64,000 bases of DNA. Source: Lineus longissimus. Taxonomy: Eukaryota; Nemertea; Pilidiophora; Heteronemertea; Lineidae. The DNA lies in assembly GCF_910592395.1 (NCBI RefSeq), contig NC_088308.1, positions 27,791,501-27,855,500 on the forward strand, in the 5' to 3' direction. The notes under the pieces were generated by a model. The model saw only the letters and a program-made list of their open reading frames with translations, was not told the DNA's origin and did not search any database. Within the stretch, counting starts at the first letter, position 1. Each line of letters begins with the position of its first letter. Positions 10,578 to 57,982 of this stretch are shown piece by piece. A program made the translations under genes and the position numbers.

Positions 10578-13500
10578 ATGGAAACTTTGCTCTGTTTATC
10601 TCTCCTTTTTGCGACCTTCTGCGGATGCATGGGCACGCCCTGGTATCGGTATTTATTTGAGGAGAACAATAAGGTGACGAGCAGCTCTTCTCAGTGTGGT
10701 TATGAGGTAAGAATTTTGCTTAAACTTGACGTCTTGAGTTTTATTTTTTGGGAATTTTGCTTAGTTCTGTCAAATTCAGGATGAATGAACCAACGACATG
10801 GGCCCTTTTCCAGATGTGCCGGTGATTTTGTATTAGGATAGAATAAATGTCTGAAAATTGTTGTGTCTGTTTCAGACATGTGACCTTGGTAAAGCAGGGA
10901 TGGTCAATGTCCATCTGATCCCACACACACATGATGATGTTGGATGGCTAAAAACTGTTGATCAGTACTACTATGGCTGTGAGTATTTTTATAAACCAGG
11001 CTCATCTGACCTGTCATGTGATTGAGTGGTTTTCCTCCAGGTATCTCATTGTCTATGCCATGTGATGTTGTTAATAATGATATCCATCATTAGTGATTTG
11101 GCCATGTTTTTTGCTTGATAACAGTTCTTCTTGACACACTTTATTGATAATACACACTGTAATGATAATGTGTATTGTCTTCATGTTTGCTGGCCTAAAG
11201 CATAGTTGGCTGTCGGTCTAAACTAAATTTGAATCTGTCCTTCAGCTCGAAATAACATCCAAGATGCAGGTGTCCAGTACATCTTGGACAGCGTCATTGA
11301 TCAGCTCCAGAAAGATCCCAAAAAGAGGTTCATATACGTCGAGATGGCATTCTTCTATCGCTGGTGGAATCAGCAGCATGACCTCGTTAGACATCAAGTC
11401 AAACAACTTGTTAACGAAGGTAGGCTAGAATTACTTGGATATCAACATTTAGACTTCAATGATGACAGATTTAGCTTTTCAAAAGTTGCCTGTTTTAGAT
11501 AAGTGCCATTGATCAACCTGTTGAATTTGCCAGGGGTGCTTTGCAAGCAGTGATATTCTTGGTGTTGGTCAAATATTAAAGGTATGTAGGTACATTATCA
11601 CAGGAAGCTTTCTTTTATGGGTCAAGCCAGTGATGTTCTTGGCTGCAGAAGAAAGATATATGTATTTTAAAGGATGCCCACTTCTGCTTATCAAGAACTG
11701 CATGCTGCAATTTGAGTTGTGTTGCTTTGAATGAAATCTTATGGAGTGCTGTATTTTTCAGGCCGTCTTGAGTTTATCCTTGGAGGCTGGTGCATGAATG
11801 ATGAAGCTGCCACACATTACAATGCCATCATCGATCAGCATACGCTTGGTTTCAAGTTTCTGCGGGATAACTTTGGAGACTGTGCTCGGCCACGTGTGGC
11901 TTGGCAGATCGATCCTTTTGGTCACTCTAAGGAACAAGCCTCACTTTTTGCTCAGGTAAGAATAGAAAAAGGCTTCTAGATTCATTGATTGTGATACTGG
12001 TCAGGCGCAAGAAGTATATTGGATGGAATTTGTGTTCAGAAGTAAAAAAGCTGTGTAAATGTTGCTACAGGTAGAACAAATCAGACTATTTCAAATCCAA
12101 GTGTCGTCTTTCTGCTTTAATTTACTATGAAAACCAACAGATTTCTGATAAATTTATCTGAAGATTCCTGTTTCCTTTCAGATGGGATACGATGGTTTAT
12201 TTTTCGCCCGTATCGACTATGCAGACAAGGCAAAGAGAATTGCAGAGAAGACGCTCGAAATGATGTGGAAGGCGAGTAATAACCTCGGTAAGTTGTCGCT
12301 GGACGACATCTAGCTCAGCCTTTCTATTAACGAAACGAGGGAGATCAAAATGTTCTCTAATGTTGAGAAGCAGATGTATAGTGGTACCCCAGGAGTGATA
12401 CATGTACCAAGTTTCCCCCTTTTCATTAGAAAACACAATACCAACACAATACAACATGCCTGTATTCTCTCTTTAACAGATACTTAGTTTGAACATTGTC
12501 GTTGTTTGCAGATGTTAACTTGTTTAGTGGGGTATTCTATAAGAATTATGATGCCCCCCAGTACTACTGCTTTGATTCAAGATGTAATGCTCAGCCCAAT
12601 AATGACCCAGTTGCTGTAAGTTCTTTGCTTTGTGATTTCAACCCCGTCTTAAGAGTTGTAAAATCAATGTGTTACATGGACTGCTTCATCACCTTACCCC
12701 TAAAGTTGTGTCATTCTGTCTTATCACCTCCCTCCACTCTGACCTCTGTATGACTCCTTGGCACCAATCACCATAGCCTTAACCAACACATGCATTTAAC
12801 AAAGACTAATCATCTTTAGATTTTGAGTGGAAATATGATGGCTTATTAATTACTTGGTACATGACAAAACTTGTCTCTTGCATGGGAGTTGAACTCACAA
12901 AAGCAAAGCCTCCTCTCTCCTCAGCTGAAGGAGCAATTCCATTGTCCATGTAGCAGGATAAATCTGTTTTCATATCCCTCTTACTTCGATTCACAATCCC
13001 TTGCAGATGATACCCTTTTCACTGGGGTGTTTTATGATAGATACAGATCCCCAAATAACTTCTGCTTTGACTCGAGATGTGTCCGACAACCTAATAATGA
13101 GCCTATCAGAGTAAGTCATGGTCTTGTGAATTGTGTGCCCATGATTTAGTTACAACCAGGAACTTCCATAAATTTTTTAAGGTACATTTTTAAAAAGTTG
13201 CCTTGCCCAATCCAGCCTTCCTGAGATATAGGCCCCAACTAGATAGGTTGTTTGATTTGATGAGTGTTCTCCTATGTTTGTGTTCCTTTTATGTCCAGTT
13301 AGCCATGCTCTTCCATTATGTTTCATTCTATATAGGCATACTTCTAACATGGTCCAACTTCGTCCAGAAGTAAATGTTACAACGTAAAACATATCACTGA
13401 CGGTTTTGTATTTCAGCCTTAAGGTTTGAAAGTGTCCTTGTTTCCTCAGAGGGGGAAGGGGGGGGGGACATGTCACCCTCCCCTCAATAAGCAAAAGGAT

Positions 13501-16500
13501 AGTCTTCCTAAGGTTTCCTTTGCTTGCTATTCATCTGTTTACTTTGCTGACTATCTGTTTACTTGGTGTAGGGGAGAGTGCCAACCTTTTCACTGGAGCA
13601 TTTTATGGCCACTACAGTGCTCCATCACGGTTTTGTTTTGATACGAATTGTCGAGATGAGCCAATAAGGGTGAGTTCAAGCTGAAGGTGAAAGAATACAT
13701 CCCAATATCTTTCTGCTGTTTGTGAAACTATTACTAACCTTCCTTTCATCAAAAGCATGTTTCTGTGCAAAAAACCTTCCGCACTTTTCTAGATTTTGCC
13801 GGTAACATTTCACTTGTTTCTCTCCTCCATAGGCAGTTCAGGCAACATATTTACGGGAGCTTTTTATGGAGGATATGGTGCACCTGGGGGATATTGTTTT
13901 GATGAGAAATGTCAGGACACTCCGATCATGGTGAGATTTAAACTCACATTTAGAGCGGGTCTGCTTTCGCTTCTGTTAGAGAAACATACATGTACTTATT
14001 TACTGCGAAATGCTGCTTTATGGTTTGCAATTCAGAAAAGAACACATCTCTATCAGTTAGTAAAGAAGCATGTTTTATATGCTACTAGTAGTTCTCGAGA
14101 TGTTGTAATGTAATGTAATGCACAGTGTGCACAAATAACATGTTTTAAAGTTATGGTACGGATGGTTTTATTTTGGTAAGTCTTGGCGAAACTACATGTA
14201 ATTCATAAAGTGTTTCTCTTAACTCCAGATCTTCCTGTTTTTCCCAAGTCCAATCTTGTAGCCTGTAACCTGTAACCTATCATCACCTTCTTTCACAAGA
14301 AAAAAGAAACCTCTCTCATTCTCAAGAGGGGTGATTTTTTGTCATGTCTTAATTAGCTTTTGTCCCTCCAGGATTCATGCTTCTCTCTTCAATAGCGGCT
14401 CTTTGCTTAGGAATTTGCATATTTTCATCTGCAGAAATGTTGTAGAACATCCTACTCACAGAGAAACGATCAGAAACCTTGCTTTTAATCAGCACTCAAA
14501 AATCCAAAAGAAGATGCTTTGTAGATGTTGAAAGATGCGCTTACTAGATTTCATTTGTAGAAATCTCGAGTGGGATTATTAGTTAAAAAGTTAAGCTATC
14601 AGAGCAAAGACTACTTGGAATGTTTTGACATCAAAGACAGTTAGTTTTCTAGTTTTGTGATTGGCTGATAGAATGGCGACTTGTATTCATTTCAGGATGA
14701 TGACAGGCTGCATGATGATAATGTCAAGGCCAGGGTCGATGAGTTCATGAAGGCAATGAGTGACAGGGTAAGTTGGCTGAGAATGACAAGGATTCCAGAT
14801 CGATATTTAGTAGAAATTGTAATTGGTGTTTTATTGTCTGTTCATTTCCAGAAACAAGATATTATAAATAAACAAAATTGTCTGTTCTTCTTCATTGATA
14901 AGTTTCTTGCAGCATCATATTGAATAAGTTGGTGTTTTGGTAACTGTTCAAAGTTTGGAGAAAAGGAGATGTGGAGAATATGAAGTGTTTTCAGATTGCA
15001 CGTCAATCCACTGGGTCAATCTACTGGCTCACATTCGTTCTTTTTCTTAAACAGGCAAAGGCATTTGCTACCAGTCATGTGATGCAAACAATGGGAGATG
15101 ACTTTAACTTCCAAAATGCCAACATGAATTTCAAAAACATTGATAAGCTCATTAGATACGTCAATGATAGGGTATGTTGTTATAGATTAAGCTTGGTGTT
15201 TCTCTCTTGGTTGACATGCATCCTTCACTGCTTGGCTTTCTGTCTCTTTTCCTCCAGGCAAAGGCTTTCGCTACGAACCACATTATGCAAACCATGGGTG
15301 GAGACTTTCAGTTCCAGAATGCAAATATGAATTTCAAAAACCTCGACAAGCTCATCAAATATGTTAATGATAGGGTGAGTGCTTGTAAGCAATTTGTGTG
15401 TACATAGAAGTGAGTGAAACCCATCTTGTAGCTGAATATCTTTACAAACTTAAAGTGCAAAATACATTTCAAAATACCCTTCTACTGAAGAAAATAGGTC
15501 ATTTAAGTATAAACAGAACATTCTTATTTCAGCAAGCTGAGGGCAGCAAGCTCAACCTCCTCTACTCTACACCATCATGTTATTTGTACGCCCTAAACAA
15601 AGCTAACTACACCTGGCCATCCAAGTCAGATGACTTCTTTCCCTATGCCTCTGACCCACATGCGTACTGGACTGGCTACTTCACCAGCAGGTCCTCACTC
15701 AAGGGATACGTCAGGGAGACAAACAATTTCCTTCAGGTAAGACATGTTGGTTCCAGTTTGAGTTTCATGATAATTTCACACCATTGCCTTCATTTGCAGA
15801 TCACTTGTGTGTGTGGACATCAGGACTTTACCCAAGCCCAGACGTTGCTGCCTACAGGTATACTCAACGCCAAGAATAAGAAAACCGGTTAACAAGTGTA
15901 TTTGTTGGGAGTTCTTGAGCTGCCTTTATTATATTGCAGCTTGTGATCTTGAACCTTCCATAATATGACCCTGAGTGTTACCACGATTACTACTGTCTGA
16001 TAGTTTTCATCTGGGAATGGTACATGTACATATGATGACTTTTACTGTTTTTCAGGCGGTCAAACAGCTCGATACTCTGTCGCAGTTGGGGCCTGAGCAT
16101 AGCAGTAACTACAAGTTGGGTGTTCTCAGTGAGTACGATATCTTGCAGTTTCCATTCACAGGCCATACATGCTGTCTTGTCTTGAGCCTCTATTGAGTAC
16201 ATTGAATGCTTTATGTTAACCCGAATAATGATGTCTGCTTATTGATGTCACATGGTACCAATAGTGCAGTGAACCAATCTGCCTGATGATTGAAATTTTT
16301 TTCAAATAGGCGGTCATGTGGGGTTGTATGAGTTCTGAAGATTTGATGTAGTTTTGCCTGAAATCTTTGTCCTACATGTTATTTCAGAACGAGCCATGGG
16401 AGTAGCCCAACACCATGATGCTGTCAGGTATGTTGAGCAATCTACTCTCTACGGGTCTTTTCATGAAACTGAAAAGAAATGTGAAATTACGCCACACTTA

Positions 16501-19500
16501 CCATAAGAATTTGGATTTCTGGTAATAAAGGTTACTGGCTCTTCACACCCTCAAACATCTACCTTGAATGAGAAGCACTAAGTCATAGTGATGCCAACTG
16601 GAAACAGAGGTTATGCAGTCTGATACCAAAGAGGAAATGCTTTTAGAGCATGTAGCCGTTTGATAATATAGGTATTGTCATGTTTGAAAATGTGACATGT
16701 TTCCTCTTTCCAGTGGTACAGAGAAACAGCATGTGGCGTATGACTATGCGGAGAGACTTGCCAATGGGACTGCTGAATCCCAGCAAGTCGTAAGCCATGC
16801 CTACCAGAAGCTGATGGCCAAGGGATCAGACGTAACACCAGATCATCAGTTCTGTGACCTCATGAACATCAGTAGATGTGCATTCACTGAGTCCCATAGT
16901 CAGGTGAGTGAATGAATGACTGTCAGGTCTCCGACAAGGAAGTGTTTGGACCATTTGATGATAGTCCTCAATATTTGTCACTTTATCATAATCGAATAGC
17001 AGTGAACTTCTGACGTTGTCTCTGATATAACTTCAGGCTTGCATTCGCATGCAACATGACATAAGTCTAAAGCTTTCTCTTTTCTTTCAGTTTGTCCTTA
17101 CTGTCTACAATCCTATCGCCCGACCTGTTACTTCATGGGTGCGCCTCCCAGTGGTGAACAGCGCCTATAGAGTCACTGGCCCTGATGGTAAACCAGTAGT
17201 GACACAGGTGGGTACATCGACCTCCATCTTTAAACAACCAGGCTTCAAGTGTACATGCATCCATTTCGGTACCCAAGTTGGAAGACTAACTGATCTGGAA
17301 GTGCATTAGGACTCACAGCAGCAAAATGATTAACTTCAACAGCATTCTAGGTTATTCAAGATTGATTGAGAATCTCAGTGTAATGAGAAGTAGGTGATCC
17401 ATATGTCAGGCCATTTACTTTAGTATAAAAGATAAAGGAGAGCTGCTCACCAGGCTTATCTATAGCATTTGAACAATTGAAGTTGACCAATGCACTTTAT
17501 TGTTTTCAGATGGTGCCTGTCAGTTCCAGAACCAAAGCCATCCCCGAGAGAAAGCCCAGCAAAGCTCAATACACACTGCTCATGAACGTCAGCCTACCGC
17601 CGTTAGGATTCAGTAACTACTTCTTCAATTATACAACAAGTGAGTTTTGAAAATTCTATTCGAGCTTTCTGTATTCTTAATGATTTTGATGCTGTTACTT
17701 CATGCGAAATTTCAAAATGTTTACGCTGATTTGCTATGAATATAAACTGGAAATGATGCTCTATGAAATATACCATCGATGCATTCTATTTCCAGGCTTG
17801 TTATTCCACCAGAATGAGGCAAGTCGCGTCACCAGGGATAGTACTTTGAAAAAACAGGATGACATTGTAATCCAAAATCAGGTATGTTGTGAACAAAGTG
17901 CTGTTTGTTATATCATTTATTACCACTGCGAACTAAGGGACCCAGGCTGATCGTCAACTCTTCAATGGCAGCAAAGGTGTTAGTGAAAGTCTCCAGATGA
18001 TCTGGCCCTCTTGCAGAACCACAGGTTAAGCAATTGGACAGCACAGGAAAGGTCGAACAAGAAACATATGAGGTCTTTCAAAACATCGTAGCAGGAGGAT
18101 AGGTCATGTTAATACAATTGTGTCAAGTGTGTGACTACTTTTACTTGTCTACTTCAGCATGTATCAGTCTCGATCAACCCAACCACTGGCATGATAGAAA
18201 GCATGACCAACAAAGATAAAGGGATCACCATCCCGCTACAGCAGTCCATCCTCTACTACTCATCTTTCCAAGGAAACCAGTCTGCACCAAAGTGGCGTAA
18301 CTCTGGAGCGTACATCTTCAGACCAAAGGAGAAGTTCCCTCTACCTACAGCAAACTCAGTAAAGGTTACTAAAGTTGAGGTGAGAAACTCAGAAAGTCTG
18401 TTTAGAAATATTGACTAATTTTCAGATAATCTGGCAGGATGTTGCTTTATTTCTGCAGAAAAGCCTTCAGCAAGTTTTCTCAATGTTGCCTTAGCTATAC
18501 CTCCATGGAAGACTTGGCAGCTCAACACTGGTACATGTAAGCGTTGTCTTCATCGTCCTTTTGGAGATAACAAACCTGTTGCTATGTGTTTCAGGGTCTA
18601 CATGTGACAGAAGTACACCAAACAATGAACGAATGGGCAACACAAGTGATCAGATTGTACAACAATGCTAAATATGTTGAACTTGAATGGACTGTGGGGC
18701 CTATTCCTGTTGCGTAAGTTGAAAGTTGGTATGATTGTGAGGCATGATTAATGTATGTTAGCGGCATTGAGAACAAAACCTTTTGTGTTGAAGGGAAAAG
18801 TTCCGAAGTCTGGATAGATGCCTGAATAACAGGTTTTCCACAAACATTTGAACATTGAGGCTTGGACTTCAGCCCAAGTCCCATTGGTGGCAGAGCTGAT
18901 CTGGAGCGCTGGCTATGGCTAAATTTTCTTTTATCCAACATTGAGGCAAAAGAAGTAAACAAAGAAATAACATTGATAACTGCCAGCCATCTGAAGTTCA
19001 AATGGCTGTTGTTCACTTCAATACTGTAGAGCTTGTTTTTAACCGATGATTTATGCTTTTCTTCTTGCAGTGATAAACAGGGCAAAGAAGTTGTCAGTTA
19101 CTTCAGGACTGGACTGGCATCTAATAAGCTCTTCTACACTGATGCTAACGGCAGGGAGATTCAGCTCAGAACGTAAGTAGAGTATTGCCATGAAGTTGGG
19201 TCTGTGCTATTTATCAGAATGTACATGAAAAGTTGCTTCTAGTCTATATACTTCAATGATCTTATCCGTTCTTGTTTCAGTCGTGATTATCGTCCGACCT
19301 GGAAGCTGAATGTCACTGAGCCGGTGTCAGTGAACTATTACCCAGTCAACAGTCGTATCTTCCTTAGGGTAGGTCAATTCTTCCTTCATTTGGACCAATT
19401 CTCCAACATTCGATGCAAGTTAAAGGTGAAGTGCAGGATTTTGTTAGTTATGATTGGGTGGATGACCAAGTATGGTTTCAACTTCCATCCAAAACCTGTC

Positions 19501-22500
19501 CTTATATAGTGTTTTATATAACACAAGAGGCAGTGATCGGCATACTTCGGACACATAGCCAATTCAGGTAATGGTAGAATACACATGAATGTTTTCATTA
19601 GAAACCTTGTTTTTACTCCAGGATGAGGTGAACAAGAAGGCCCAGTTCTCAATTCTAACAGACCGTTCACTAGGGGGTAGCAGTATGAGAGACGGTGATC
19701 TTGAAATCATGGTAGGTAGACAGCTTTCTTACCTGATCTAGTCAACAGCAATGAAGTCAAATATGGCAGTTGCGTGCAGTGGTGTACAGTGCACTGCTTA
19801 TACTTTTGTTGTGATTGTCGAACCAATGCGTCTTTGAAGTCAAGTACTGATGGTCTATCAGCAAGACTATTGTTTGTAGATAAATCATCATTTAACATAC
19901 TGTTGGAGTTGCCAAATTCTCTTGTTTTAGGTGCACCTAGTCAGAGTTCTCTCTTCTTTCAGCTGCATCGCCGGATGCTTCACGATGATGGTTTTGGTGT
20001 GAATGAAGCCCTCAATGAACAGGGCTGCGATAAGAAAGGACTGATCGTCAGAGGTAAATGATATGAGCAACCTAGACTTAGAGGTGTTGCATTTTACTGG
20101 GCATTGTCACTGTGGAACATGCTGGAGCAGGAGGCTAAATGAAGTGGTATTGCACAAGGCTGACTCTTAGATCTCTATTGTATGAGGTTGTCCTTAATAG
20201 AGAGGTGTCCGCTAACAGAGGTTCCACTGTAGTTACAGTGGGTGAAAGGAGTTACCATTCTCTGTTTAGACAAAGTGCTAGCATGGCTTGTGTCCTTTTT
20301 AGTGTTTGATGCAAGGAACCTTCTCCTAGACAATTCCTGAATTGTTGTATATTTACTCTCTTTCTTCTTGATTTCAGGTAAACTGTATCTCCTCTTGGAC
20401 ACCATTGAAGCTTCTGGTAGCCTGCATCGTGACATGGCCGAGAAACTCTTCATGGCCCCTACCTTGTCGTTTATGGAGAACAGTCTTCCATACTCTGCTT
20501 GGACTGCCAAGTACAATGTGATGGTAAGTTACACACGATACCATATTGGAGATTTTGGAGATAGTGTCCTGAACAGTTCAAGACATTCAAGAGTTGCTTG
20601 GAGACATATCAGAACGTAACCTGCTGAGATGCCTAAATGGTTGTACCCATCTTTTGATGAGCTCAAGTTCAGAAAGTTATTTTGGAGGTGCAATGATTGT
20701 TTGCTCCGTCTTTTTTAGGCCTGCTGTTGCAAGAAACCAGTTCATACTTTTCCGTATCATCTTTTCAGTATTCTGGCGTAAAGAGAGCTCTGCCCGACAA
20801 TGTTCATCTGTTGACTATGGAACAGTGGACTGCCAGCACGTTTCTGTTGAGATTGGAGCACTTCTATGAGAAGAATGAAGATGCAACTTTATCTAAGGCT
20901 GCAACGGTTTCTCTTCTGGTGAGTTGCTTCATTTTTGTTAGCCTCCTCGGAAGGAAATTTATTTACATCTTTTTGTTCATATTGGTTTCAATATGGATAA
21001 TGGAAGAGAGAGGGAGTTTGGTTTACTAAGAGCACAATAGATGGCGATGGTAGTGCGGCATGGCTGTGTTATTGTCGTTGGCAATTCATATGTTCTTGTT
21101 CCTAGTTGAAGTTCCCAAGGGCAGTACTTTGACAAAGGGTAAGAACCCTTGCATGTAAATCAAGCCTAAAATCTGCATATATGACAATGATATTAATGAA
21201 TCTCATACTTTGCTGGGAACTGAGCAGCATCGTTTAACTTGGCTTGAGTCCTTGGTTATTTCCTTTTACTGACCAATAACTTGAGACTTATAGAGACACC
21301 TTTGACCGTATGCAAAATGAATAATCTTTTTCAGGGCCTGTTTGCTCCATTTGAGATTGGTTCTGTTGACGAGCTCATGCTTGGGGCCAATCAGCGACTC
21401 GCTGATTCTCATCGTTTGAAATGGAACTTCAAAGATACTCAGAATGGTGAGTAGTCTCATAATCATATCGTTGATGTTGTAACTTGCCCTACTTTGAGTT
21501 GCCACCTGACCAAGCACTGAACACCTGAAGGAAACAACACTGATAGCGGGACGGGGTACATCAAATCATCGTGATGGAAATATCACAATTAATTCCTAAA
21601 TCGCACCCTTGGGGCATTCTGAATTTAAATGACCTCAATTTTACTGCCCATTGCCGACGCACAATAGAATCAAATCACTAATTGCTGTCACTGTAAATAT
21701 GGAAGCTATCTCCAGAATGGCTGGCTAGAAATTCATTTCCTAGCTAAAGTTCAGGGCTCCGTGTAAAAAATTATCTGAAGCATTTAACTATCTATTCAAA
21801 ACTTGATAATGGCGCACACAATCCATGTTAATAACAGGTGGAATCCTTAATCATGCAGTATCATAATTTGTGGTGTGCCTCATAAACCAATTTTAACTTT
21901 GATGTCCCTGGGTAATAGGGTAGACATGAATTCAATATGGCTCCTTCAGCTGTTTTTCAATTAATTTTGAGTAAAAAATATCAAAAGATCCGAACAAGCC
22001 ATACAAATGATTTGAACGTTTTGATAAATACCTGAATAAACTCAAAATTAGGTGCATTAACTTGTTAATTAAGGTTTGAACAGGACATGTGACACCTTTA
22101 GGGGGAAGATTGTGTCAAGCGCAAGATTTCGTCCACCTCAACCTCAGGCTCAGGCCACTTGAATGATTTGCGGGAACCAGGACCCATGGGGTCCGCTGTT
22201 CAAGGGTATACTCCAAAAACCAAACAATAAATGAGTTTATTGGATTATGTTTGGTGTTTTATGTTGTGTCGTTTATTCTGAGGTTATTGTTAGCAAATAC
22301 AACAGTAAAAATTGGAGAGTTAGATGTCATGGGGTTATGGTCAAAGAGGGGAATAGCACGTTTTTCCTGGAACACAAAAGTTATGGCTGTCCTGAAACTA
22401 CCCATGATTGTGGATGTGTCGCTGCCCTCAAATCATCATAAAAGGAATCTATTTTAATCAATTAAATCAAATGATATTCATTCTCGATAAAGTTTCATTG

Positions 22501-25500
22501 TTTACAAAATTTTTGTATGAAAATGACCTGACTATCATTCCATCTGATGTCTAGGAAGACATTAACCCAAAATATTATCACAATCAATTGAATCACTCTG
22601 GAAGTAATCGCTTGATTTTGCCAAATCATCTGATCTATAAATGTGATAAACAAAGGGTGCTCACTCCATTTTGATCTCATTTGTTCATTTTGTCCGTCCT
22701 CCGTTCATCCTCACACGTGACGAAACAATACAATCCTGACCTGGTTTCAAGGACTACAATTAGTTCATTATCTAAATTGACCATTGAGGACATGCCCTTG
22801 TGATTTCATTTCTCTTGGTCACCGGCAGCGGACCGGCCATCTCTCATATGACATGTATGATCTGATGTGATGAATGCGCCCCTGCAGGTTCACTGCTTTC
22901 ATTTAATCATGTCACATTATCATCACCTTTGACGGATGTGTTAATAATTGACCCTGATTCGTAACAGAATTTGATGAGTACAACTCAAGGGGATATTTCT
23001 CCTCCTCATGGTGTCCATCCTTGGGAAAAGATTAAAAGACATGTTGATTAGTCCGAAGGTATTGTTACATAAATCTACTTATCTAGCATTATGACTGACC
23101 ACGTTTCCAATATGAACCATACATGACTGATGTATACAGCCTATTTTTATGTCTTTAGAGTACTGATGTTTATTACATAAATCAAGGGGTGTCTTACAAA
23201 ATAAAACATTTGACGATTGCATAAAAATGGCCCCACGTTAGTTCCGCTTCAGATGGGAGAAAAGACCCATTTGAATGAGCCATCATAATAGGATTCTATA
23301 GAGAGCACAATGCAATTAAGTTGAGGAGAGCCCTAAGTAGCTAAGAATATGCTGGTTTGTGAGCTGGCAAATTAGATCCAGTCATTTAGGAAGTCCTCAA
23401 CAACATCTTGATGTTCTTGCTCTAAATTTTTGTCGAGTGCTCATAGACTTGCGGAGTTCAGGCAATTCTGTAATGTTTCGAATTTCAGTGTACTTGATCG
23501 GGCTTTATTAGGAATTTATTGACGATCTTGAGACAATGGGCTTCCGACTCGTGGTGGAGTACACATGAGTATTTACGATGCAAATTAGATGCAGGAGAGA
23601 TAATTATACATTGGTGCCGCATGTATTCTCATAGTCAAACAGACACTTCAAATGGCTGCACAGTTATATTGTCTTACTTCATGATTCTTCTTTTCTTTGG
23701 GATCAAAGATTAGTTTTGTCTCTTTAAGCACAATCAGAGGAATCACAATGGTGTACCAGTAAGTTGTATCAGTTGGTATGTTTGCAGTCGTGTGGTTGAA
23801 GATCAGAGTGTCAGCCTTTTCCTAGAAACCATGGCAATATGGTGCAAAGATCACAGCATATTTATAGAAGATGAAATAATCATGATGGCGGTCGATAGGC
23901 CAAATATTGGATGCGTTGAATGGTGATTTGTCTATAAGAGACAATCAGGACACGTCGAGTTATTGTCAAGAACGTGGTGACTTTGTTTGCCCTCAATACT
24001 AAAGTAGTCGAGAGGTCCATCATGAAAATGCCGTGGACCAATATACCATGCATGAATGCCCACTAAAAGAAATGAGTTAGATGAGCCCTTGTCGTATCGA
24101 TGGTGCGGTGTGCTGCTACAGCAATACCAGCACCTAAACCAACAATGCACACCAGTCAGACTTTGGCTTTATTGTCCGAGTTGTCTCGCGACCACGTGTG
24201 CGCACCAACACTCCACCTTGTCATGTTGTAATAATTACTGGCCAACACAGGAAAAGCAATCAGCAGAGTCAACACTTAAAAATGATTATTTTTGGGGTCA
24301 TCCACGCAGAAAACGTCATTTTATTCATTATATTTGATTGAAGAGCTAGAACGATGTTTGCATTGGCTACGTTTTTATATCAGTTTCATTTGATTCAATT
24401 CCAAAGCATCGCTTTGTAATAGGTTTGTGACTAAAGGTAGCGAGACTAGCGGTATCCTGCCGACTTCCGGCCGCACAGCCACTACCGTCATATTATCAAA
24501 ACAAACAGGAAATGTTTGTCGTCCTGTGTCGATTTCAAAAGAGGAAATCTTCTTTCGTTTAGAAAGGCTATGAAACGTTTAATGACTGCTAATGGTCGCC
24601 ATTTGCAATTTGGATGATCTCTTTTCCTGACAATAGCAAAGTGCGTCATCCATCCCCAGCAAGGAATCGCCCCGGGATATTTTAAGTTTACGTTTCTGAT
24701 TGACATTAAGAGATGCATATATTTAATTTTATTCAAAGTTTATGAAAACAAAGCCCATGGGTTTAGAATTTAATAAAACATTGAACACCAGGTTCATTGT
24801 TTTGAGTTTCATTCAGATATTGTCTGTATAAACAGAAACTATTGTTTATCAATTTAGATTTGACTCAATCACTCTGTACTCTAATTTATGACAGGGTTTT
24901 AAGTATGTTGTTCTTTCCTGTCAAGGTGACAACCTCCATCGAGATTCAAGTTGGGTCCTTAACCCTGAGTTTTCATTCAGAAATGCCCTGGCAACCAGCA
25001 AGCGTTTATCACCTCCAACAAACCATGAAATTTAAAATACATGTCATGAAAATTCTTAATGAGCCATTATTCAGCACTATAAATCTGAATGCAAGATATT
25101 CAAATGTGACAATTTCACCAGAGACAATAGATGGGACCATCAAAATATATCTTAAAGGCCCTACCCCTTGATCATATCATGTAGTTTGCTGTACCAATGC
25201 TGCATTAATTCAAATTCCCTGAGATCGAAAACAGCTGCAGTTTAACTACCATAGTATATAACCTGCCTTTGGGTTTGATATAACCCCCCCCCCCCCCCCC
25301 CCCCCCCCAGTTCTGATCGTGCCATTCTATAGTATTTGCCATGAAGCGACTGAGTTGATGTGAGAGACCAGGTGGGAAGCCTAGTTCGCCACCAACTCAA
25401 TAGCTCCACCAGCTCATTACCCTTGAACAAATACCCGATGTCAATTAATTAAGCAGTGATCTACAAAGAGTTAAACATCAATTTTCCTATCCTTATGATA

Positions 25501-25939
25501 TGTCAGGTGGGCAGCCTGACCAAAGTCAGTTGGAGTACAATAAGAACGTGAAGTTATTATACATGTGCAGTTTTACTCTGGGCGTGTTTTCATTGTAAAT
25601 AGTCTATTTGAATTTGATAACAATTGTTTGATGATCAAAATGCATTTGTCCGCTTTTGAGGCAACTGCATTGAATTCTTATGCTGATATTCCGAGTCATT
25701 GATTGTGGTGCAATTTCAGGTTGCCGCGATACAAATCACTTGTTTACAGACGTAATCATAGAGATTTCCGCCAACTTTTTCTCAACTCCAATGTTCTCTA
25801 TCATTGTCTACTTCCAGATTACAAGAGCTACGTTGACAAGTCGTATGGCGCAGAATCCAACCACGTCCCCAGCAACGCCTTGGATGTCACTCTTCAGCCG
25901 ATGCAGATTCGCACATTCCAAGTTTCTCTAAAACAATGA
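10578..25939 (+). CDS. MAN2B1: Lysosomal alpha-mannosidase (GH38), MAN2B1-like, with alternative exon sets
   Basis: Exons: 10578-10706, 10876-10978, 11246-11419, 11762-11955, 12182-12287, one of 12512-12615/13007-13110/13572-13669/13833-13930, 14696-14767, one of 15055-15171/15258-15374, 15533-15736, 16056-16128, 16388-16427, 16714-16903, 17091-17207, 17510-17639, 17796-17881, 18158-18379, 18595-18713, 19071-19172, 19281-19368, 19622-19711, 19963-20053, 20378-20523, 20769-20918, 21335-21446, 25818-25939. This gives 1026 residues (1024 with the shorter exon 6). The family hydrolyses alpha-mannosides during lysosomal glycoprotein breakdown. A signal peptide follows the start ([16 protein letters not shown]). 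Zinc and catalytic motifs are present: HTHDDVGW (H62, D64), the nucleophile in [10 protein letters not shown] (D186), GDDF (D310) and QHHDAVSGT (H435), numbered with exon 6a or 6b. Position 10578 is the first in-frame ATG. Confidence 0.96.
12512..13930 (+). other. MAN2B1: Cluster of four tandem alternative versions of mannosidase exon 6
   Basis: Copies are 6a 12512-12615 (104 nt), 6b 13007-13110 (104 nt), 6c 13572-13669 (98 nt) and 6d 13833-13930 (98 nt). Each has its own AG acceptor and GT donor and encodes the same pattern: (N/L/I)-F-(T/S)-G-(V/A)-F-Y, two residues, Y, then P and C-F-D-x-x-C. Copies 6a and 6b share the tail QPNN(D/E)P(V/I); 6c and 6d are two codons shorter. All start in phase 1 and end in phase 0, so only one can be used per in-frame mRNA. 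They correspond to the human segment containing LFTGVLPNGY (residues about 236-270 here), in the GH38 catalytic domain. Introns of 391, 461 and 163 bp separate them, and 6d is 765 bp from exon 7. A 10-base G run (13458-13467) sits about 100 bp upstream of 6c. Confidence 0.92.
15055..15374 (+). other. MAN2B1: Pair of tandem alternative versions of mannosidase exon 8
   Basis: Exon 8a (15055-15171) and exon 8b (15258-15374) are both 117 nt, phase 0 to phase 0, separated by an 86-nt intron. They encode 39-residue segments identical at 33 positions. The differences include GDDFNF in 8a against GGDFQF in 8b; human has GSDFQY, so the second Asp is kept in both. Related mannosidases have a proposed acid/base Asp at this site. 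Because 117 is a multiple of three, using both would not break the frame but would duplicate the segment, so exclusion must come from splicing rather than frame. Confidence 0.9.
16388..16427 (+). other. MAN2B1: 40-nt mannosidase micro-exon carrying a zinc ligand
   Basis: The exon enters in phase 1 and leaves in phase 2. It encodes [12 protein letters not shown]; the second His of the HHDA motif (residue 435) corresponds to the third His/Asp zinc ligand of GH38 enzymes. The motif is completed across the next junction (SGT at 16714). Skipping this 40-nt exon would both shift the frame and remove the metal site. Confidence 0.88.
20180..20235. repeat. Dispersed repeat fragment in mannosidase intron
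   Basis: The stretch contains GTCCTTAATAGAGAGGTGTC followed by AGAGGTTCCACTGTAG. Its reverse complement starts CTACAGTGGAACCTCT and carries CCTCTCTATTAAGGA, the same word found in the stem-loop at 9284-9393. It is probably the end of an old DNA transposon copy. No partner end was identified. Confidence 0.5.
21447..25817 (+). other. 4.4-kb last intron of the mannosidase gene
   Basis: The donor at 21447 (AATG|gtgag) and the acceptor before 25818 (cttccag|ATTAC) keep the frame (G|AT, Asp). The intron is far longer than the other introns of this gene, which are under 800 bp. It is AT-rich, with scattered open frames of up to about 110 codons that resemble nothing known. It contains a run of 25 C (25284-25308). 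No nested gene was found. Confidence 0.75.
25284..25308. repeat. Poly-C tract, 25 bases
   Basis: An uninterrupted C25 run lies in the last mannosidase intron. Similar C runs occur at 36266-36278 (13) and 39725-39742 (18), and G runs at 60968-60981 and 61015-61025, so such tracts recur in this genome. The exact length is prone to sequencing error. Confidence 0.9.
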
Positions 25940-31700: not shown

Positions 31701-31793
31701 GACATCTCTTCGTCGTTCAAGGAGGGTGTGACTGACTTTTGTTTCACTGAATTCCAAGGGACGAAATAGTTCATCGTAGCATTGCATGGCGAA

Positions 31794-32414
31794 ATGGATG
31801 GACATTTGAAAATGGAGGTATCTGGGGCTGGAAGAGTAGACAATTCTCATGCAGCTACTCCGGCGATGACTGGGTTGACTTCCAAAAGCCCCTTGTTCGG
31901 GGCAACTGCATCAACGGACCAAGCCCGTCTTCCTTCTGGTTCAGACGGTTACAGTCTAAGTTATATGACAAGAATAGATTGCGAAGACATAGAAAGCTTA
32001 AAAGATGAAGGAGATTTTGAAATGGCAAATTTAGATTTGGACGCATGTATTGTGTCGTCTGCGAAGACGATGACAGAGACTATCAGTCGGGTTTCGGAAT
32101 CAAAGCGACAAAGGAAACGACTGGAGGGGCAGCGCAAGGAGAAACGGCGGCCAAAGTCAAGTGCAAGTCCAGGGAGATCGGGGAAGCGGAGAGGTCCAAC
32201 GAGGCAACCTAACAGGGACGTGGTCAAAAAGCGGCGACTGGCAGCGAACGCTCGAGAGAGACGCAGGATGCACAGTCTCAATGTCGCGTTTGACGCACTA
32301 AGGGAGGTTGTGCCTGGACTTACTGATGATAGACAATTATCGAAATATGAAACATTACAGATGGCACAAAGTTACATAAATGCGTTGCAAGATTTGCTTG
32401 TGAAACGAAAGTAA
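31794..32414 (+). CDS. ato: Atonal-family proneural bHLH transcription factor, single exon
   Basis: The 206-residue protein has a bHLH domain at its extreme C-terminus. The basic region [20 protein letters not shown] is followed by helix 1, a loop (VPGLTDDRQ) and helix 2 ([20 protein letters not shown]); only five residues follow. Basic region and [11 protein letters not shown] are hallmarks of the Atonal/ATOH1/ATOH7 group rather than neurogenin or NeuroD. The N-terminal half is Ser/Lys/Arg-rich and unconserved, with a basic stretch [18 protein letters not shown] before the domain. I chose ATG 31794 because upstream in-frame codons begin at a TTG after a stop at 31807-127; ATG 31812 is an alternative. 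Known role: heterodimerises with E proteins at E-boxes to specify sensory or neural precursors. An intronless reading frame is usual for the family. The exact orthology (ATOH1 or ATOH7 type) is not settled. Confidence 0.93.
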
Positions 32415-56236: not shown

Positions 56237-57982
56237 TCAGAAATCTTTCCCTGGACTTTTCTGGCGGAGTAGAGTACTGAACTTGTTCCTTGTAATCACA
56301 TGGTTGACATAATGCTTGAGCTCACGCAGATAAATATCAGTGTAACTCTCAAACAAGTTCACATCTGCGTTGAAATAATTTGGCAATTTCCTCTGGTCAA
56401 GGAACCTGTCCAATACCATGAACATATCAATCACTCTCTCGGCTAAAACTTGTTTGTCCCAGTTTTCCTCAATCTGACTCAGGTGAAAGAGGATGGTCTT
56501 GAAGACATAGGGTTCAACTAAATGCAAAGGAGAACCATAGTCATTCATGCTAATTGCCTTCAGAATTCTCAAGCAGTCTTTTTGACAACCATTTTGTGAG
56601 GTCAAGGATTTCATCATTGCTTCCTCTTCCTCAACATAGCTTCGCCTCCACAAATTTTTGTATCCATCCATCCCGAATAAAGCAAACTTTGGATGCAGCC
56701 TTCCTGCCATTGTGACATCACCAATCTTCACCATTGGGATGATATTTAGTCTCAGTTTCTGATCACTTCCATAGATCACTGTCACACTCAACGAATTTTC
56801 CTTCACAGATGGTTCAATTGTGAATCGCTTTTTCCCTGGTCCTACAGAACGTTGGAGCAGGGCTTGAAAATACTGCAAGATCTTCTGAGGGGACAAGTAA
56901 TATCCAACAAGAAACCTGTCCCATGGAACTGAGCCTACTTTAAAGAACTCCTGATTGCTACGCTTGACCAATGCATATCCTGGAGAATCTAGGAGTGTGT
57001 CTTTACCATCAATTAACTCCCATTGTGATGAATCTAATCTGAGCTGCAGGAAGGTATCAAAATCGTCAGGTGTGATCACTTGGAGGTCTTCGTAAGCACT
57101 TCCTGAAGCATTAAGAGAGATAAAGTAAACTTTCGGAGGTAGTTTGGAGGGAACAGCAGTACAAGGATATCAGAAACCTTTGTCAAATTTATATTTCCAG
57201 TTATTTTGCATCAAACAAAATTAGATATTGTCTTTTTCTTAGACATAGTTACTTAGACTGATATCAGCTGTTTCTGAATAATGAAGGGGCAACCAGAGTC
57301 ATCACTCACCAGTGTGTATCAGTTTTCCAATGGGAAGCTCGGGACAGGATTGATCTAGCATTTCAAGGACATACTCTTCTAACTCTGCCACAACTTTCCT
57401 AGCTGTTTCTACCTCGCTCATGCTTGGCTTCACATAAGATTCAAAGTAGTCTTCCAGGCTTTTCAATAGATTCACAGGCTGCGCCTGGCGGTGGCTGTCT
57501 GGTCTTATATCTATGTCTGTGTCTTCTTCAGTTTCTGGAAAATTGACAAGAAAATATCTAACAATCCATTACTTTTAATATATCCATTGATAATTCAACA
57601 ATTTCTTTTCAACTCTGCATTGGCATCAATCAGCTGATCAATTAGTGAATTATGCTACAATGAATGGTAAGCATGCAGGTCCTAAAAAGCCAGCAAAAAT
57701 TGTTTAAATGAAACTTTTCATCCTGCTCCTGACATCCTGTTCCATCTTGAAGAATTGACAAAAGTTGACTTCTCGATTTCAATAGTACTGACCTGACTCA
57801 GAATCACCTGGTCCTTTAGTAGGTTTATCTTCGACAGCTTGTCCACTTACAGCTCCTCCCTTCCAATAGTCTTCATATAGTTTCTTTGCTCCATAAAAAG
57901 CCAGTCCGCTGATTACAGCTCTACCGACCGCTCCAACCAGAAAAGACATGGTGCTTTGTTTCTTCCTGTCACCAGAAGACAT
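56237..57982 (-). CDS. MIEF1: Mitochondrial dynamics protein MIEF (MiD49/MiD51 family)
   Basis: Coding exons are 57982-57793, 57534-57310 and 57102-56237, totalling 1281 nt or 426 residues (human MiD51 463). Residues about 10-30 form one hydrophobic segment after a basic start (MSSGDRKKQ), as expected for an outer-membrane anchor. The cytosolic Mab-21/nucleotidyltransferase-like domain shows GSAYEDLQV (human GSLYDDLQV), WDRFLVGYYLSP, LRILKAI and NADVNLF. Known role: an outer-membrane receptor that recruits the fission GTPase Drp1; MiD51 binds ADP. The acceptor-like gtctttcctttgcag just upstream of the ATG implies a 5' UTR intron. The segment aligned with the Drp1-recruiting loop PEYFP of MiD51 reads QEFFK (189-193). 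I cannot tell whether this gene predates the MiD49/MiD51 split; a single pre-duplication gene is likely. Confidence 0.9.

Follow-up and report, generated by a model that had tools for sequence, protein, structure and literature searches.

Two clusters of tandem alternative exons that may tune one substrate pocket of a lysosomal alpha-mannosidase in Lineus longissimus

How many enzymes can a single glycosidase gene specify, and which part of the protein would the choice of exon reshape? The question is raised by a stretch of 64,000 nucleotides (the window) from the nemertean Lineus longissimus (RefSeq assembly GCF_910592395.1, contig NC_088308.1, positions 27,791,501 to 27,855,500 of the forward strand), which carries on its plus strand a GH38 lysosomal alpha-mannosidase gene running from ATG to TGA at 10578..25939, with 25 coding exon positions. 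Two of these positions are occupied by more than one exon, four homologous copies at exon 6 and two at exon 8. Taken as a whole, the statement that these are two alternative-exon clusters tuning one substrate pocket, with up to eight isoforms, is judged probable, the step to the pocket being the weaker part of it.

The identity of the gene is supported at several levels. A model spliced with copies 6d and 8-1 is identical letter for letter to P0001, the annotated L. longissimus “lysosomal alpha-mannosidase-like isoform X2” of 1024 residues, and Pfam Glyco_hydro_38N matches this protein with E 4e-84; a preliminary description of the locus, made from its DNA letters, had proposed the same family, and as a sequence-based assignment it holds. 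PF01074, PF09261, PF07748 and PF17677, representing GH38 N-terminal, middle and C-terminal domains, exceed their cut-offs in the Lineus enzyme, PF21260 stays under its own (24.5 vs 27 bits), and NCBIfam returned no match for P0001. Structure prediction, which covers P0001 (6d + 8-1) alone, yields the GH38 fold with a pLDDT of 84 and a pTM of 0.87. In structural alignment the protein is of lysosomal type, with 42% identity to jack bean 6b9p as against 22-24% to the dGMII chains. The catalytic acid Asp is present in both exon 8 copies, and all four exon 6 copies keep the 268-273 cysteine pair; the translation begins with a hydrophobic N-terminus, lysosomal location and activity being predicted.

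Four copies of exon 6 and two of exon 8

The first cluster lies between the constitutive exons 5 (12182..12287, donor phase 1) and 7 (14696..14767, 72 nt). It consists of exons 6a (12512..12615, 104 nt), 6b (13007..13110, 104 nt), 6c (13572..13669, 98 nt) and 6d (13833..13930, 98 nt), the last being the copy used in isoform X2; all lie on the plus strand. AG precedes and GT follows at all eight borders between the exon 5 donor at 12287 and the exon 7 acceptor at 14696, every copy is entered in phase 1 and left in phase 0, and the introns between successive copies measure 391, 461 and 163 nt. The longest intron of the gene is its last (21447-25817, 4371 nt), followed by the intron of 765 nt from 6d to exon 7.

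Including one base carried over from exon 5, the copies encode 35, 35, 33 and 33 residues, all open. The motifs F-[ST]-G-x-F-Y and C-F-D-x-x-C are common to all four, as are Tyr261, Pro264, Cys268, Phe269, Asp270 and Cys273 (human/bovine LAMAN numbers). A tblastn search of the window with each copy recovers the other three (E 2.6e-12 to 0.008), any two copies share 42-61% of their amino acids over 31-35 codons, and at E below 0.2 tblastn finds no further or decayed copies in the window beyond the six exons treated here. The preliminary description had placed four homologous copies with their splice borders at exactly these coordinates and had read the two fixed motifs in segments of 33-35 residues; each of these particulars was reproduced.

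The same account had divided the copies into the subtypes 6a/6b and 6c/6d. Length and indels agree with this division, the two groups differing in a gap of two residues close to the start and in an insertion of four residues behind the second Cys, which in its full form occurs in none of 118 database proteins carrying the segment. The nucleotides do not bear it out, as a-b (0.63), b-c (0.63) and c-d (0.61) are about equally close and non-neighbours share 0.52-0.53. Neighbouring copies are thus the most alike, as stepwise tandem duplication predicts.

The second set, exons 8-1 (15055..15171) and 8-2 (15258..15374), lies ahead of constitutive exon 9 (15533..15736), again on the plus strand. Each of the two is 117 nt long, has AG/GT borders and carries the catalytic acid; 8-1 is the copy in isoform X2. 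They form a tandem homologous pair, 85% identical in protein, and differ at six residues, five of them conservative (S/N, V/I, N/Q, I/L, R/K) and the sixth corresponding to human 318, which is Asp in 8-1 and Gly in 8-2. In the predicted 6d/8-1 structure this exon supplies a strand, the acid loop and most of one helix of the catalytic domain, and inclusion of both copies should, by inference from that model, disturb the fold. Exons 6a-6d and 8-1/8-2 alike are tandem homologous copies of the same phase between shared constitutive exons. The exon cluster reported earlier is confirmed for exon 6 and was incomplete, as it left out exon 8-2, and with it the exon 8 pair and the pocket common to both clusters.

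Reading frame, selection and splice sites

The reading frame bears directly on how the exon 6 copies can be combined. When all 16 subsets were translated with the rest of the gene, four remained open, each with exactly one copy, and the other 12 ran into a premature stop at codon 237-328. The frame admits a single copy only, since both lengths (104 and 98 nt) equal 2 mod 3 and have to bridge a phase-1 donor and a phase-0 acceptor. As the premature stops all come many exons before the last junction, such RNAs are expected, from general knowledge of nonsense-mediated decay, to be degraded, and transcripts with none or several exon 6 copies would be removed in this way. All eight single-choice combinations of exon 6 and exon 8 are open to the same TGA. 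In the mechanism proposed here, old tandem duplications of exon 6 (fourfold) and exon 8 (twofold) would have been kept as alternative exons, one of each per mRNA.

Divergence between the copies speaks to their age. The proportion of synonymous differences (pS) is 0.68-0.92 among exon 6 pairs and that of replacement differences (pN) 0.28-0.38; for the exon 8 pair the values are 0.79 and 0.08. One-sided Fisher tests on rounded counts gave p values of 3e-5 to 0.0017 for the six, non-independent exon 6 pairs and 1.3e-10 for exon 8. Near-saturated synonymous divergence together with restrained replacement divergence indicates that the copies are old and under purifying selection. In neutral simulations that ignore indels, with 40000 runs each at 0.3, 0.6 and 0.9 changes per site, an open frame with GT/AG was retained in 5355, 1374 and 537 runs, respectively, for exon 6 and in 6009, 1425 and 499 for exon 8. 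The earlier view that the copies, open and with intact cysteines and aromatic residues, have not decayed is in line with these open frames and with the restrained replacement divergence.

The extent of divergence also disposes of an artefact of allelic or assembly origin, in which the copies would be haplotypes or misassembled paralogues. In its favour stands the general possibility alone. Between exon 6 copies, 37-48% of the aligned nucleotides are different, the paralogous locus described below lies about 6.4 Mb away and has a different exon, and the published 391-megabase L. longissimus assembly was built on 79-fold long reads (PMC8593623). This explanation was rejected on the divergence between copies and is considered hardly conceivable.

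Several results nevertheless weigh against alternative use of both clusters. For exon 8, inclusion of both copies or of none keeps the frame, 117 being a multiple of three, so that exclusivity is unenforced by the frame, and exon 8 is filed here as a tandem alternative pair that is not frame-enforced. At the splice sites, scored with a small matrix built from the gene's own 22 constitutive acceptors, the 6c, 6d and 8-1 acceptors fall short of every one of these 22, and decoy AG sites score at least as high as the acceptor in 89 of 686 cases for 6c, 322 of 686 for 6d and 140 of 686 for 8-1; 6a and 6b have acceptors ranking 16 and 18 of 22. No docking-selector RNA pairing was found in the exon 6 introns beyond a low-complexity G run. 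Among the annotated proteins compared, the exon choice 6d + 8-1 alone is represented, and no heteronemertean relative is named among the 120 matches listed for each of three protein searches (of 4611, 1088 and 1513 found), many of the listed matches carrying no species name.

Some of these points can be set against others. The donors of all six copies fall in the constitutive range, as do the acceptors of 6a, 6b and 8-2, the last ranking 7. The annotated isoform uses 6d and 8-1, and low acceptor scores therefore do not bar use; those of 6c, 6d and 8-1 may reflect regulated exons. P0001 represents a cluster of four member sequences from one contig, named isoform X2, of which the representative alone was compared and the remaining members may differ elsewhere in the protein; such a cluster fits the existence of several isoforms. 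On this evidence the exclusivity of the exon 6 copies claimed in the preliminary description is supported indirectly, by the 12 of 16 subsets that break the frame and by selection on the copies, and is weakened by the low scores of the 6c and 6d acceptors.

The exon 8 pair would have to be kept apart by other means, possibly by the short intron between its members. At 86 nt (15172..15257, plus strand) this intron is the shortest in the gene, with branch-point-like A residues 43 and 56 nt from its 5' splice site. A steric exclusion threshold of about 50 nt has been proposed (PMC7969005), which one of the two candidates fits and the other does not. How each of two neighbouring clusters in a single transcript is limited to one exon, the first by the frame and the second otherwise, is a question that the locus invites.

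If only 6d and 8-1 were used, the remaining copies would be relics that are no longer spliced. The annotated isoform compared does use these two exons. No other Lineus isoform appears among the 120 matches listed in each of the three protein searches, and two shorter protein queries returned no Lineus protein, and hence no other isoform, among the 120 listed for each, the highest listed identities being 64% and 63%. Relics, on the other hand, would not be expected to show restrained replacement at near-saturated synonymous divergence in every pair, and neutral copies would, according to the simulations, rarely stay open with GT/AG. Moreover, 6a-6c have donors that score within the constitutive range, and at 6a and 6b the acceptor outscores that of 6d. 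Loss of splicing is accordingly held to be improbable, and alternative use of the exon 6 and exon 8 copies, as read from the genome, very probable.

Two further candidates were tried and rejected. Competing RNA structures were sought among the five introns around exon 6 as exact inverted words of 10, 11 and 12 nt; 6, 3 and 1 were found (overlapping words), which is not significant next to 60 shuffles averaging 2.7, 0.8 and 0.2 and reaching at most 10, 4 and 4. The introns around both clusters start with GT, end with AG and by inspection, with no U12 model applied, look ordinary rather than of U12 type. A duplex scan gave one outlier, a G run at about 13450-13468 in the 6b-6c intron, for which pyrimidine tracts in the cluster's other introns are potential partners and which is probably of low complexity. 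Its best three duplex energies sum to -86.6 kcal/mol vs a best of -70.1 in 12 shuffled sets, an unmatched control, as the shuffled sets were scanned at step 12 and the real introns at 6.

Residues 262 and 318 of the substrate pocket

Which part of the enzyme would then be exchanged? Residues were mapped by alignment to positions 261, 262, 268, 273, 318 and 319 of bovine LAMAN (1O7D) and to Tyr269-Asp270 and Asp340-Asp341 of dGMII, the dGMII numbers being obtained through an offset of 30 hand-counted from Asp341. Tyr261, residue 262 and the disulfide pair 268-273 are encoded by exon 6, residue 318 and the acid Asp319 by exon 8. According to a 2026 review on inhibitors of Golgi mannosidase II, Asp270-Asp340 in dGMII and Asn262-Ser318 in the lysosomal enzyme form a pocket that is not conserved, and Tyr269 of dGMII is one of the residues hydrogen-bonding substrate (PMC13204073). 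Since exon 6 carries 262 and exon 8 carries 318, the two clusters supply both residues of one described selectivity pocket. In human LAMAN, P263L and S318L are listed as activity-defective disease mutations and 268-273 as a disulfide (PMC11931667).

The four exon 6 copies all differ from one another at columns that include 260, 262, 265 and 266. Residue 262 (its human equivalent) is Asp in 6a, Arg in 6b, Ser in 6c and Gly in 6d; among 118 database proteins, that is 120 listed hits less one removed for its length and P0052, which is without the segment, it is Gly in 53, Ser in 25, Asn in 23, Asp in one and Arg in none (P0001 and P0002 included). Residue 318, which adjoins the catalytic acid 319, is Asp or Gly depending on the exon 8 copy, and among 119 database proteins it is Ser in 86, Asn in 14, Gly in 5, Glu in 5 and Asp in 4, with P0001 and P0002 among those that have Asp; alignment row P0043, visibly misaligned at exon 8, was retained in the counts.

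The predicted pairs at 262-318 range from Asp-Asp, of Golgi type, in 6a + 8-1 through Arg-Asp in 6b + 8-1 to neutral or single-charge pairs in the rest. The bovine enzyme has one version of each segment, with the pair Asn262-Ser318, and Lineus 6a + 8-1 would match the Asp270-Asp340 pair of dGMII in having Asp at both positions; according to the 2026 review, the bovine lysosomal enzyme lacks the anchor-site loops of dGMII (PMC13204073). Through the charge at 262/318, isoforms would differ in their response to pH or in which mannose linkages or branches are cleaved. That the exon swaps tune the substrate pocket is slightly favoured on this pattern of substitutions. A stronger version, in which the two clusters jointly specify 262/318 so as to give 4 x 2 enzymes from Asp-Asp, like Golgi mannosidase II, through neutral to Arg-containing ones, and splicing alone sets the linkages or branches attacked, is put forward tentatively, as a proposal whose truth would be somewhat surprising.

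A different account of the same substitutions accepts that several isoforms are made and denies that the swap sets specificity: the differences would concern folding, stability, pH optimum or site of action, or represent limited drift. Much of the difference between exon 6 copies indeed falls at positions variable in the family, such as 265 and 271-272, and the Tyr, the Pro and both Cys are kept in all four, so basic function may be equal; the human-263 equivalent is Ala or Ser in all four copies and Pro in 110 of the 118 database proteins. Speaking against this account, the sole non-conservative exon 8 difference and the four-way exon 6 difference land on both residues of one described pocket. 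It is considered possible, yet rather unlikely. The pocket reading has its own adverse point, as the role of 262/318 rests on docking in other GH38 enzymes, reported through the review (PMC13204073).

Positions 262 and 318, which evolution appears to have varied here, are the two used by inhibitor chemists to separate Golgi from lysosomal mannosidase, and one of them, 318, is affected by mutation in human alpha-mannosidosis. Should the isoforms be produced, the gene would offer a natural panel of up to eight enzymes differing mainly round one pocket, in which GH38 specificity residues could be tested directly.

The paralogue, relatives and known parallels

A comparison within the genome is offered by the paralogue P0002, which shares 62% identity and lies some 6.4 Mb off on the same contig; exons 6 and 8 are each present once there, in the same phases. 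The clusters are thus not common to this paralogue, and no extra exon copies were detected at E below 3 in 10 kb of its locus. Like the bovine enzyme 1O7D, P0002 belongs to the same family as the window's enzyme, shares its catalytic acid and loop, and has one version of each segment; it also shares the phases around exons 6 and 8. Its exon 6 is nearest to 6c, with 58% amino-acid identity. In that exon (L009:7946-7848, minus strand) the 268-273 cysteines are lost, to Ser and Arg, unlike in the four copies of the window; the bivalve homologues P0028, P0032 and P0062 are also without them. Two related proteins come from the nemertean Tubulanus polymorphus, both of them single-sequence clusters.

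Among known systems the closest parallel is coq-2 (PMC7434440). Its exons 6a/6e, in helminths, annelids and molluscs, are likewise homologous exclusive exons that swap part of an enzyme core and hence substrate choice. Coq-2 has one cluster of two, proven by RNA and genetics, whereas Lineus has clusters of four and two in a glycosidase, directed to one pocket and known from genomic sequence. Exons 4a/4b of OGDH are likewise an old exon duplication in a metabolic enzyme retained as mutually exclusive exons; they form one cluster of two that switches calcium sensitivity, whereas in Lineus exon 6 the reading frame is an obvious enforcer.

Tandem alternative exons that rebuild an enzyme active site are thus already known from coq-2, and none was found for a lysosomal glycosidase in the literature searched. 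A search for mutually exclusive exons together with mannosidase, glycoside hydrolase or Nemertea gave no such cluster, judged by titles and the starts of abstracts and with subscription journals mostly outside its scope; within those bounds, the earlier statement that no such cluster had been described in this enzyme is uncontradicted. In Lineus, two clusters of such exons would meet in one active site.

Other GH38 matches in the genome include three loci (L001, L002 and L003, on contig C3 of assembly G000) with uninterrupted frames of 1070-1129 residues, about 25-27% identical to the window's enzyme, which are possibly intronless copies of another GH38 mannosidase. Elsewhere in the window, an open frame at 31782-32411 on the plus strand encodes a bHLH domain (PF00010), and another at 56240-57079 on the minus strand encodes MID51-like / Mab-21 domains (PF21297, PF20266, PF03281).

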